From Dehalococcoidia bacterium (GTDB lineage Bacteria > Chloroflexota > Dehalococcoidia > Lucifugimonadales > UBA3495): a DNA stretch of 64,000 nucleotides. The DNA lies in the NCBI GenBank assembly GCA_022827095.1, contig JAJDTP010000035.1:62001-126000 (forward strand). The letters run 5' to 3'. Shown piece by piece: positions 5,305-9,921 of the stretch. Every line of letters begins with the position of its first letter. The first letter of the stretch is position 1. The translations under genes were made by a program, and so were the position numbers. The notes under the pieces are model-generated. The model saw only the letters and a program-made list of their open reading frames with translations. It made no database searches and was not told the DNA's origin.

Positions 5305-6150
5305 TCAGGCTGCGATGTTCAGTGCGCGGCGGGCGTTTTCCAGCAACACTTTGGGGATCACGTGGTCCCGCATCTGCAGGTTTTGGAAATCCGCGAGCCA
5401 GTTGGCCGGCTGGATGAACGGGTAGTCGGAACCGAACATCACCTTGTCCTGCAACCGCGTATTGGTCTCCCGGATCAGCGTTTCCGGTATGAACCGGGGC
5501 ATCCAGCCGGACAAGTCCAGGAAGACGTTGGACTTGTGCAGCGCAACAGCAATCTGCTCGTCGATCCAGGGCCACGCGGGGTGGGCCATGATAATGGTCA
5601 TGTTCGGGAAGTCGGCGGCCACGTCGTCGAAGCAAGGTATGGGCTGGCTGTATTTCAGCTTGAGGCCGCTGCCGCCCGGGGTTCCTGAGCCGGCGCCCGC
5701 GAACCCGGAGTGGAACAGAACCGGAATGCCCAGATTGTCGGCCACTTCGTACAACGGGTAAAACTTTGTGTCGTTGGGGAAAAAGGCCTGATGAATGGGA
5801 TGCAGTTTCAAACCCTTCAGGCCCAATTCCTTTACCGAGCGCTCCAGTTCATAACACGCTGCCTTCCCCATCCACGGGTCCACCGAGGCGAACCCCATGA
5901 ACTGCTCGGGATGCGAGTCGACGATGCTGGCCACCCAGTCGTTGCTGTCCGGTCTCTCGCCCGTGTTAGTGGTGGTGTCCACCGAAAAGATCACGCCGAA
6001 CAGGTCCAGATCACGGAACTTGTCGGCCATTTCTGCGGGATCACTGGGTGGAGGTGGCGCTCGGAAATATCGCAGCAGCTCAGCTTCGATCTCGATCTCG
6101 GGCAACCCCGGCTCGCGGGGCACATGGATGTGCATGTCGATGGCTTGCAT
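5305..6150 (-). CDS. Amidohydrolase family 2 protein (ACMSD-like TIM barrel)
   Basis: The 281-residue protein starts MQAIDMHIHVPREPG, giving the HxH metal motif. It continues with GLKLHPIHQAFFPND, PVLFHSG, IIMAHPAWPW and VMFGSDYPFIQP, matching the metal-ligand His positions and the catalytic Asp of amidohydrolase-2 enzymes (decarboxylases and hydrolases of the ACMSD superfamily). The length is usual. The substrate is unknown. It follows a TfoX-N gene on the same strand with a 40-base gap. Confidence 0.87.
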   Translation of the reverse strand: MQAIDMHIHVPREPGLPEIEIEAELLRYFRAPPPPSDPAEMADKFRDLDLFGVIFSVDTTTNTGERPDSNDWVASIVDSHPEQFMGFASVDPWMGKAACYELERSVKELGLKGLKLHPIHQAFFPNDTKFYPLYEVADNLGIPVLFHSGFAGAGSGTPGGSGLKLKYSQPIPCFDDVAADFPNMTIIMAHPAWPWIDEQIAVALHKSNVFLDLSGWMPRFIPETLIRETNTRLQDKVMFGSDYPFIQPANWLADFQNLQMRDHVIPKVLLENARRALNIAA

Positions 6151-6190: not shown

Positions 6191-6520
6191 TCATTTTGGC
6201 GGCAAATTGGCCGTGAACTCGGCTCCGCGCGCCACCCACTCGTTCAACCCTGCGTCGGAGTTAACGCCTTCCGGTTCAACGAGAATCCAACCGCGCATCG
6301 GCCGCCCGGTCAAGTCCATCAGGCCGGCGTGGGGCAGCCTAAGCGCTTCCTCGTAGCCCTCCGGCCCCACGCGTACTATCAAACCCTGGCCGGTTACGCA
6401 ACAGCACATATTGCCGGACAGCATGAACGCCAGCCCGCCGAACATCTTGCGCTCGGCGACGTCGGAACGTCCCGATAGGGCTTTCTTGACGCGGACCGCC
6501 AGCGCTTCGTCGTAGGCCAC
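6191..6520 (-). CDS. TfoX N-terminal domain protein
   Basis: The 109-residue protein shows the TfoX-N signature RKMFGGLAFMLSGNMCCCVTG near residues 24-45 and a typical LMDLTGRPMRGWILV segment. It lacks a TfoX C-terminal domain. In other bacteria such stand-alone proteins are uncharacterised; a role in competence cannot be assumed. Only 14 bases separate it from the upstream TIGR03086 gene, so it is probably co-transcribed with it and the AprA-like gene. Confidence 0.85.
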   Translation of the reverse strand: MAYDEALAVRVKKALSGRSDVAERKMFGGLAFMLSGNMCCCVTGQGLIVRVGPEGYEEALRLPHAGLMDLTGRPMRGWILVEPEGVNSDAGLNEWVARGAEFTANLPPK

Positions 6521-6534
6521 GGCGCGTCCAGGGT

Positions 6535-7137
6535 CTAAGGCTGACGCCCCATGTAGCCGATCATCTTATCCTGTAGGCTGGCGTTGTCGGATACGGCAAT
6601 CTCCGGGCCGATGAAGCCGACCTGCCGGCCCATATCAGCAAAGCCGCCGGACACCAGCATCCCATAGGCGAATTCCAACATCTCGCTGTCCAGGGTGGTG
6701 TCCTGACCGGTGGCTTGGGCCAGATCCCAACAGTGGACGAGTTGATCCAGCACCGTGCCCGTCATAATGCGCGCCACTGGCATCTCACCGAAGGGAGTCA
6801 TCGCCGTCTGCTGAAGGGCATCGGGGCCGGCGGCAAGTTCCAGCGCGCGATCAACCGCGGCGTGGTAGGCGCGGATCAGAACGGCAACGTCGGTTTCGCC
6901 CTGATAACTGCTCTCAGCCTCGTTGGGGCGAATGTCGGGCACGTTGCCGGTGATGCAGCCCGCCGTGAACTCCAGCCCGCCGATGAGGTGGTTGAACAAG
7001 TCCAGCACGCTCCACTGGGAGCAGGGTGTCGGGTCCGTAGCCTGAGTTTGGGTTACGCCGCTGGCCACTTCTTTGGTGCGACGGGTAACCCGTTCCAGCT
7101 GGGCTACCGGGTCAGGCGTTGGCGCTTCAGTAGTCAT
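6535..7137 (-). CDS. TIGR03086-type metal-binding protein (mycothiol maleylpyruvate isomerase N-domain-like, DinB superfamily)
   Basis: From the ATG at 7137 (MTTEAPTPDPVAQLERV) the product is 200 residues. CSQWSVLDLFNHLIGGLEF near residues 43-61 and VLDQLVHCWDLAQATGQD in the middle match the four-helix MDMPI-N/DinB fold, with metal-binding His residues in each motif. The same frame stays open far upstream, antisense-free but overlapping the AprA-like gene in another frame; that extension has no family similarity and is a chance open frame. The start sits 2 bases after the AprA-like stop codon. Confidence 0.82.
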   Translation of the reverse strand: MTTEAPTPDPVAQLERVTRRTKEVASGVTQTQATDPTPCSQWSVLDLFNHLIGGLEFTAGCITGNVPDIRPNEAESSYQGETDVAVLIRAYHAAVDRALELAAGPDALQQTAMTPFGEMPVARIMTGTVLDQLVHCWDLAQATGQDTTLDSEMLEFAYGMLVSGGFADMGRQVGFIGPEIAVSDNASLQDKMIGYMGRQP

Positions 7138-7139
7138 AC

Positions 7140-8999
7140 CTAGAACACCTGCGGACAGTCGCGGGTGAACACGCTCCACTCGCCCTTCTCGGCATCGTAG
7201 CGAGAGTTGACGAACACCTTCCAATTGCTCTCGTCCATCTCGGGATAGTCGCTGCGATAATAGAAGCCCGGCCAACGGGTTTCCTTGCGATGCAGCATGT
7301 GGCGCAGGTGCGCCTCGCCGACCCACGCCCGGTGGATGAGCTCGTGGCAGCGCAGCAACTCGTGGCGGTTGCGGGCGCCCAGTTTCTCCAGGTCTTCCCG
7401 GAACATGCCCAGCAGTTCCAGGCCGCGCAGCATGGTGGCCTCGTTTGTGGTGAAACCGGCCGAAACTCCGGCCACGTACTCGTCCATGAGCTTTTGCAAG
7501 CGGTAGAGGCCCTGTCGAGGCAGCAGGTAGTTGGGATTCACGTCGGGGTTGGAGGAAGCGTACTGGTTCTCCTCGAAGGTGACCATGGGGGCCCAAACCT
7601 GCTTCTTGAGCGCGTCGATCTGGCGATCGTCTGTCTTTGGTTGGTTGGGGTTGTCCATGGCATAGATCACGGCGGACTTGCCGGCCAGTCGGCCCTCGGT
7701 GAACGAACCGGACGAGAACTTGTGGGGGCAGGCTCCAACGCCGTCGCCAGCGGCGAACAGGCCCTGCACGGTGGTCATCTTGTTGTAGCCCCAGTGGTAT
7801 CCGTCGGGCGCGACGTCTTCGGGGCCGCTGACCCATGCCCCTGATTCGCCGCTGTGGCTGCCCATGATGTAGGGTTCGGCGAGCACGACCTCCGAAGGGC
7901 GTTCCTCCGGAGCGATGTTGTGGGCCGCCCAGAGAATAGCCTGGGAGATGGTCATGTCCAGGAAGTCTTCCCATGCCTCCGCGATGATTTCCCGCTTGCG
8001 GTCCTCGTCGCCGGCGGCCAGCGCGTCGATGGCCTCCGGGGTTTTCAGTTGGATGGGGCCGTTGCCGGCCTGGATCTCCGTCCAGAGCAGGTGGTTGCGC
8101 AGCGGCGTCGGCGTGGGGAACGCGGAACCGTATGGGTCGTACTTCTTGAGCTCGGGCAGCCGGTTGATGAAATAGTTGTCGCCGGCTGCGTTGGTCAGGT
8201 CCGCGCGGAACAACTGCGACCACGCGCCCACCGGTCCGTAGGAGTCCTTGAAACGGCTGGGGACGAAGCGATGCTCCATTTGGGTCATCTCAGCGCCCAC
8301 CGGTATCACGAGTCCGTACACCGAGCCGGTGTCGAAGATGGAGTACCACGTGCGGCCCATCCCCTCGCCGACGCTGCGGGGACGGAACAGGGCCGTGGCT
8401 CCCCCGGCCGCGCTGATCACCGAGCGCGCCTTGAAGATGTAGATCACATCCTCGCGGACCCCGAAGCCGACTGCCCCGGCAATCCGGTTCGAGTCGTCGG
8501 CGTCGGTAAACAGGTGGGAGATGAACACCCGCTCGAAGTGGTCTTCGGGTCCGATGACTTTCTTTGTTGCCTCGGACACAATGGGCTTGTAGGCCTCGCC
8601 GTGGATCATCACCTGCCAGCGCCCTTCGCGGACGTAAAGCCCTTCGTCGTCGTACCAGAAGGGGAGTCCCCATTCCTCGAACATGTGGACACTGCTATCA
8701 ACGTGACGGGCCACGTCGTAGACCAGGTCCTCGCGGGAGATGCCCATCATATCGTTGCGGACATATTCGACGTAGTCTTCGGGCTGGTTCCAGCCGTGTC
8801 GCATCCCCATGTACATGTTGATGGCGGAAAGCCCTTCCCCGACCGCCCCGCTGCGATCGGTGGCCGCCTTATCGACCATCACGATACGCAAGTCATCGCC
8901 GCCCCAGTAACGGGCCTCGATTGCCGCTCCGCAGCCGGACATGCCGCCGCCGATGATCAGGACGTCGCTTTCAACGATGCGGGTTGTTGGTTCAGCCAT
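7140..8999 (-). CDS. AprA-like FAD flavoprotein (adenylylsulfate reductase alpha-subunit family)
   Basis: The 619-residue protein opens with an FAD Rossmann motif (VLIIGGGMSGCGAAIEARYW) and follows AprA closely: DRSGAVGEGLSAINMYMG, ARHVDSSVHMFEEWGLP, RFVPSRFKDSYGPVGAW, GSHSGESGAWVSGPED and GHKFSSG-type CPHKFSSGSFTEGR. The Arg and His near the flavin in characterised AprA appear kept. AprA normally pairs with the two-cluster ferredoxin AprB; no aprB gene lies on either side. It might act on APS/sulfite with an unlinked partner, or be a divergent flavoprotein of the fumarate-reductase superfamily. A TATACT promoter lies at 9092-9100. Confidence 0.82.
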   Translation of the reverse strand: MAEPTTRIVESDVLIIGGGMSGCGAAIEARYWGGDDLRIVMVDKAATDRSGAVGEGLSAINMYMGMRHGWNQPEDYVEYVRNDMMGISREDLVYDVARHVDSSVHMFEEWGLPFWYDDEGLYVREGRWQVMIHGEAYKPIVSEATKKVIGPEDHFERVFISHLFTDADDSNRIAGAVGFGVREDVIYIFKARSVISAAGGATALFRPRSVGEGMGRTWYSIFDTGSVYGLVIPVGAEMTQMEHRFVPSRFKDSYGPVGAWSQLFRADLTNAAGDNYFINRLPELKKYDPYGSAFPTPTPLRNHLLWTEIQAGNGPIQLKTPEAIDALAAGDEDRKREIIAEAWEDFLDMTISQAILWAAHNIAPEERPSEVVLAEPYIMGSHSGESGAWVSGPEDVAPDGYHWGYNKMTTVQGLFAAGDGVGACPHKFSSGSFTEGRLAGKSAVIYAMDNPNQPKTDDRQIDALKKQVWAPMVTFEENQYASSNPDVNPNYLLPRQGLYRLQKLMDEYVAGVSAGFTTNEATMLRGLELLGMFREDLEKLGARNRHELLRCHELIHRAWVGEAHLRHMLHRKETRWPGFYYRSDYPEMDESNWKVFVNSRYDAEKGEWSVFTRDCPQVF

Positions 9000-9168: not shown

Positions 9169-9537
9169 TCAATCCAGGCTTTCCAGCGTGTCGATGAACA
9201 CGCTGATAATTTCTTTCCCGTAGCGTATTCCATCGGCCGGTGGAGGCCACGCATAAAATCCTTGGTGATAGGCCGACGCCATCATGTATTGGCCCCATAA
9301 ATGCGGCGGTGCGCCCTCGTCGCCGATTAAACGTTGCATGGCTTCCTGAAGCAGCGCATGGGTATGGTTCTCCCAACCCCGGCGTTCGGCCGCCGCCTTG
9401 ATGGCATGCGCAGCGGCACCCCAGACCTTGTTGCTGGCCTCCTCCAGCTCGCCGCAAGCCAACTCGTCATCCACCAGATCCAGAAAATGCCTACTGCGCT
9501 CACGGTGGTAAGCGATGGTATCCGCGCCGGTGGTCAT
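9169..9537 (-). CDS. Small helical protein, PaREP1/HEPN-like (copy A of tandem pair)
   Basis: The 122-residue protein starts MTTGADTIAYHRERSRHF. The segment LACGELEEASNKVWGAAAHA followed by AERRGWE resembles PaREP1-type and related HEPN-like helical proteins, whose function is not settled. It is a tandem duplicate of the gene at 9553-9921: residues 1-56 are identical while the second halves are clearly diverged. It is the last gene of a probable minus-strand operon of three. Confidence 0.65.
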   Translation of the reverse strand: MTTGADTIAYHRERSRHFLDLVDDELACGELEEASNKVWGAAAHAIKAAAERRGWENHTHALLQEAMQRLIGDEGAPPHLWGQYMMASAYHQGFYAWPPPADGIRYGKEIISVFIDTLESLD

Positions 9538-9552
9538 GGGCCACCCTCCTGC

Positions 9553-9921
9553 CTAGCCCACGCTTTCCAGGGTTTGGACGAACTCGGAGATCACCGATTT
9601 CCCGTAGCGTATGCTGTCTGCGTCGGGAGCGCCACCGTAGAATCGCTGGTGGTAGTGCGAGGCAATGTAATATTGCCCTTCAATATGCTGCGGTTCGCCT
9701 TCCTCTCTAACTAATCGCAGGACAGCGCTTTCAATCAAGGCATGGGCGTGGTGCTCCCAACCCCGGCGTTCGGCCGCCGCCTTGATGGCATGCGCAGCGG
9801 CGCCCCAGACCTTGTTGCTGGCCTCCTCCAGCTCGCCGCAAGCCAACTCGTCATCCACCAGATCCAGAAAATGCCTGCTTCGCTCGCGGTGGTAAGCGAT
9901 GGTGTCCGCGCCGGTGGTCAT
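9553..9921 (-). CDS. Small helical protein, PaREP1/HEPN-like (copy B of tandem pair)
   Basis: The 122-residue protein has the same first 56 residues as copy A (9169-9537), then diverges (HHAHALIESAVLRLVREEGE versus NHTHALLQEAMQRLIGDEGA) and realigns at the C-terminus (IRYGK...TLES). The sharp boundary suggests recent gene conversion of the 5' half, or duplication with selection on the 3' half. The open frame extends upstream past the ATG at 9921, but that start matches copy A. Copy A begins 15 bases after its stop codon. Confidence 0.65.
   Translation of the reverse strand: MTTGADTIAYHRERSRHFLDLVDDELACGELEEASNKVWGAAAHAIKAAAERRGWEHHAHALIESAVLRLVREEGEPQHIEGQYYIASHYHQRFYGGAPDADSIRYGKSVISEFVQTLESVG

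Follow-up and report, generated by a model that had tools for sequence, protein, structure and literature searches.

Unlinked aprA and aprB genes and a serine in place of Trp-B48 in APS reductase sequences of a Dehalococcoidia clade

According to Meyer and Kuever (PMC2211403), Trp-B48 of dissimilatory APS reductase (AprBA) relays electrons between cluster I and FAD and is strictly conserved. A crystal structure and sequence conservation are the main grounds for treating it as an essential one-electron bridge. The only enzymes lacking it in their comparison, those of Pyrobaculum, have Ala at this position, and the authors suggested that they do not function. In the Pyrobaculum calidifontis model the active-site Asn is missing too, and the P. 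aerophilum genes carry frame shifts (PMC2211403). Among the Chloroflexota, the parts of two accounts available to us describe SAR202 genomes with apr and sat but without dsr, for which sulfite oxidation to sulfate with a gain of ATP was proposed (Mehrshad et al. 2017, PMC5864207), and report that SAR202 subcluster III transcribes sat and aprA/B (PMC9416657). SAR202 aprA forms a separate clade in the first of these, nearest to Rokubacteria and a sediment Chloroflexi, and the parts available of either account make no mention of Trp-B48 loss or operon dispersal.

The window analyzed here is a 64,000-nucleotide stretch of the genome of a Dehalococcoidia bacterium (GCA_022827095.1, contig JAJDTP010000035.1, positions 62,001 to 126,000). 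Its aprA gene lies among the following features.

5305..6150, minus strand: amidohydrolase (PF04909), by profile match
6191..6520, minus strand: TfoX-N-like gene, third in the aprA run (family name from the initial annotation)
6535..7137, minus strand: MDMPI_N/DinB-like gene, of TIGR03086 type according to the initial annotation, with its ATG 2 bp past the aprA stop
7140..8999, minus strand: aprA, APS reductase alpha subunit (FAD flavoprotein), 619 aa, from profile, structure-sequence alignment, residues and tree
9169..9537, minus strand: PaREP1-family small helical protein, upstream of aprA
9556..9918, minus strand: another PaREP1 gene, sharing about 76% identity with that at 9169..9537

These neighbors match the initial annotation, which was made from the letters alone and had listed a TIGR03086 protein (the MDMPI_N/DinB-like gene), a TfoX-N protein and small helical proteins (the two PaREP1 copies) and had seen no two-cluster ferredoxin nearby; aprB is indeed absent near aprA in the window. 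The MDMPI_N gene adjoins aprA throughout the genus members examined, its position constant and its sequence 45 to 89% identical between species, compared with 92 to 97% for aprA. Most genus members checked have a TfoX-N-like gene in the corresponding position. The amidohydrolase also travels with aprA in the genus and is probably not part of the APS reductase enzyme.

The open reading frame at 7140-8999 is intact. Its product scored 923.5 bits against the TIGR02061 aprA profile (curated cut-off, 641.75), covering profile positions 1 to 615 of 616, and aligned end to end with Archaeoglobus fulgidus AprA (1jnr/2fja chain A) at 827 bits. The active-site residues Asn-A74, Trp-A234, Arg-A265 and His-A398 are all kept, as N61, W218, R249 and H382 of the window protein, and Tyr-A95, Arg-A317 and His-A446 are likewise conserved. 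The initial annotation had proposed an AprA-like flavoprotein on the strength of three motifs and a flavin-proximal Arg and His. The profile score and the alignment with A. fulgidus AprA bear this out; all three motifs are present, and the Arg and His are Arg-A265 and His-A398. In an AprA tree, a placement that had also been suggested, the protein nested among AprA sequences and grouped with its own clade (SH-aLRT 99; the tree comprised AprA sequences alone). The best fumarate reductase/succinate dehydrogenase model gave 205 bits against a cut-off of 587, and this score, the TIGR02061 score and the 1jnr/2fja match together rule out a fumarate-reductase-type flavoprotein. An AlphaFold model of AprA, built from 12 sequences, had a mean pLDDT of 60 and was set aside. 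Judged by its sequence, the window protein is a genuine, full-length APS reductase alpha subunit of the ordinary family.

The initial annotation described this AprA as being without AprB, which does not hold for the genome as a whole. The assembly (G000; 3.79 Mb in 35 contigs, with completeness of 97.7% and contamination of 4.2%) carries one full aprB (G000:C5:334919-335317; 156.5 bits, above the cut-off), encoding both [4Fe-4S] sites with 8/8 Cys, and one sat (G000:C17:27177-28289). An AprB-less enzyme is thus ruled out, aprB being in the same genome. Two possibilities had been left standing, an unlinked APS reductase subunit and a new flavin enzyme; the former is supported by aprB and sat on other contigs, and the latter finds no support, since the protein nests in AprA and both genes are in the genome. 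The term "ordinary" had been reserved for a protein within AprA whose genome holds aprB and sat elsewhere, and this is what we found. A search for dsr and qmo had been suggested as well and yielded neither dsrA nor QmoA, as detailed below.

We then looked across related genomes to see how aprA, aprB and sat are distributed. In a class sample of 393 genomes, 11 had aprA. Beyond the window genome, aprB adjoined aprA in 9 of the 10 others, and for the tenth, G282, the locus edge carried no more than the tail of aprB. Across the order, aprA was found in 39 of 250 genomes, including all 14 of the window genus. Counting the G282 edge fragment, aprB accompanied aprA in 38 of these 39; the exception, G554, is 67% complete. 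All 14 genus members also have aprB, and neither gene contains internal stops in any of them. All 22 clade genomes checked had sat; the 8 aprA-negative family members searched had neither sat nor aprB. The three genes are therefore kept or lost together.

Their arrangement has changed within the genus. Sister genera have a sat-aprB-aprA cassette. Inside the window genus, sat is separate from aprB and aprA in every member checked. The two subunit genes are adjacent in G535, are separated by a PaREP1-type gene or pair in G536, G538, G540 and G543, and lie 4 to 6 kb apart in G545 and G546, with PaREP1 genes in the gap; the genes separating them in these last six genomes are relatives of the window PaREP1 gene at 9169..9537. 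In G000, G534, G542 and G544, PaREP1 genes still stand ahead of aprA and aprB is elsewhere. It lies beside an AAA ATPase gene and its partner in G000, G542 and G544, and near lepA in G000 and G544, as in G535, G545 and G546. In G544, a single 4.38-Mb contig, sat is at 1,332,246, aprB at 2,802,785 and aprA at 3,212,642, placing aprB 0.41 Mb from aprA and 1.5 Mb from sat. Because the split occurs inside this one contig, binning error is an unlikely cause of it, despite the 4% contamination of the window assembly.

These arrangements suggest that an ancestral sat-aprB-aprA cassette was dispersed within the genus, PaREP1 genes first having come to lie between aprB and aprA and rearrangement then having split them, and the proposed dispersal would account for aprB and sat being elsewhere in the window genome. 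Since G535 falls within the insert-bearing group on the tree, its adjacent genes may reflect secondary loss of the insert. The PaREP1-type genes, which code for small helical proteins, turn up repeatedly around aprA and aprB across many genus members; the family is probably proliferating in these genomes. An unlinked aprB should not be scored as absent: in this genus, a scan confined to the surroundings of aprA would overlook aprB as well as sat. The separation also raises the question of whether AprA and AprB still pair.

Both subunits align over their full length with A. fulgidus AprBA and share its active-site residues and eight cluster Cys. They differ from it in having Ser for Trp-B48, Gln for Leu-A278 and a first AprB cluster loop longer by one residue, and the A. 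fulgidus system differs further in that here aprA is unlinked from aprB and QmoA was not found. The AprB motif MCWECxxCVK reads MCSECxACVK in families f1, f103 and f115, and Ser49 of the window-genome AprB aligns with W48 of 1jnr_B. Every one of the clade's 31 distinct AprB sequences has Ser at residue 48, and every one of the 78 others compared, bacterial and archaeal, has Trp, as do six further Chloroflexota. With 31 distinct sequences, sequencing error is ruled out. All eight cluster Cys are kept in each of the 31, and the change from Trp to Ser has a single origin on the AprA tree (SH-aLRT 99). The dN/dS values within the clade, also between species with unlinked genes, were 0.01 to 0.09 for aprB and 0.02 to 0.08 for aprA. 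This strong purifying selection indicates that the Ser-type AprB is maintained. We found no paper on a Ser-type clade, beyond PMC2211403, in the open-access literature on AprB and Trp-B48, subscription papers being outside the scope of that search. The clade appears from its sequences to be a natural relay-less AprBA variant and, with Ser under strong purifying selection, provides a natural test of the essential-bridge idea.

The AprA partner has changed in the same clade, to which Ser-type AprB and Gln-type AprA are both confined. In the adenine clamp, Arg-A317 is retained and Leu-A278 is replaced by Gln in 28/28 clade sequences, versus Leu in 77/79 others; to our knowledge the clamp is not family-defining for AprA. 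Ala-A67 is Gly and Gln-A86 is Trp (window W70). Arg-A232 and Thr-A233, which form the pocket for Trp-B48 in other enzymes, are unchanged. At column A141 of families f1, f103 and f115, the window genus has Glu, and many relatives outside the genus have Ile or Val (15/28).

Searching the clade for dsrA (not dsrB) gave nothing over the cut-off, the best matches being below 40 bits against 393, and a QmoA query had no match at E <= 1e-15 in 25 clade genomes including G000, in 23 of which Ser48 was read directly. The Trp-type aprBA-qmo clusters of other Dehalococcoidia, which are homologous and from the same class, differ in having Trp-B48 and, in all four genomes checked (G427, G089, G109 and G186), qmoA beside aprBA; G427 has qmoABC. 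In several archaeal loci of Trp type, sat-aprBA is flanked by no qmo gene, so a strict rule equating Trp loss with Qmo loss is unsupported. Within this class the two losses coincide, but as one evolutionary event; given this and the archaeal flanks, they need not be linked.

The presence of sat, the absence of dsrA and qmoA in these searches and the selection on aprB fit oxidation of sulfite to APS and then to sulfate with ATP formation. We consider it likely that the clade has a dissimilatory AprBA running oxidatively, dispersed as a cassette in the window genus. AprA and AprB would assemble as two subunits, and the AprA FAD would convert sulfite and AMP to APS, releasing two electrons; Sat would then convert APS and PPi to sulfate and ATP. 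Electron tunneling over about 12 Å needs no relay, and loss of the Trp should therefore slow transfer without abolishing it. With Ser at residue 48 of AprB, and hence no Trp relay, the likeliest electron path would be direct tunneling from FAD to cluster I, with exit by way of cluster II to an acceptor other than QmoABC. Class and AprA affinity suggest that the window genome belongs to SAR202, and our AprA tree is compatible with the position given for SAR202 aprA in the part of PMC5864207 available to us; the identity of the two clades would follow from the same affinity. Xsc, a candidate sulfite source, had no match over the cut-off, and the Xsc family gives matches in all control genomes.

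AprBA is reversible in principle, and it could instead reduce APS to sulfite, for assimilation or dissimilation. The lack of dsrA over the cut-off and of QmoA in the clade, in a search that left aside assimilatory sulfite reductase, speaks against this direction, as do the SAR202 genomes, likewise without dsr in the available part of PMC5864207, and we regard it as unlikely.

Less likely again is that AprA functions independently of AprB, either paired with a different ferredoxin-like protein or as a new flavoenzyme, with aprB serving something else. Such a role could be read into the unlinking of aprA from aprB here and in several sister species, the linked MDMPI_N gene starting 2 bp past the aprA stop and the Gln in the adenine clamp. 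Yet aprB accompanies aprA in nearly every aprA-positive genome of the order, Ser-type AprB and Gln-type AprA are restricted to one clade, sister genera with the same AprA still have aprB adjacent, and the Arg-A232/Thr-A233 pocket is intact.

Least probable, and very much so, is that AprBA has lost electron transfer between its subunits and is decaying as proposed for Pyrobaculum: the clade-wide loss of Trp-B48, the lost operon linkage in the window genus and the precedent argued in PMC2211403 are outweighed by the strong purifying selection on both genes even where they are unlinked, the retention, unlike in Pyrobaculum, of all active-site residues along with the eight cluster Cys, the presence of both genes without internal stops in all genus members, the retention or loss of sat, aprB and aprA as a set, and the SAR202 III transcripts in the available part of PMC9416657.

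Returning to the oxidative enzyme, we advance more tentatively, and with somewhat less than even confidence, a reading in which this Chloroflexota clade has a sulfite-oxidizing AprBA that dispenses with both the Trp relay and Qmo, tunnels directly between FAD and cluster, hands electrons to an undescribed acceptor and has altered surroundings for the nucleotide and FAD, with Gln at A278 in place of Leu, Gly at A67 in place of Ala and a new Trp at A86.

Several divergent sequences were seen alongside the clade. G282, of the same order and without sat, has a divergent AprA (G282:C2, L010) that groups with Pseudomonadota and archaea, so its contig may not belong to the bin. Another family of the class has a very divergent AprA/AprB-like pair (L019/L028, G011:C20; 37% and 33% identity), whose AprA-like protein scores under the family cut-off. 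Finally, the AprB genes of two deltaproteobacterial MAGs (L122:2549-2983 and L134:2512-2964) have an in-frame TGA where the second Cys of CxxCxxC would be expected (MCWE*MCCVK). Beyond this codon the reading frame stays open and is conserved; this TGA possibly encodes a selenocysteine cluster ligand.
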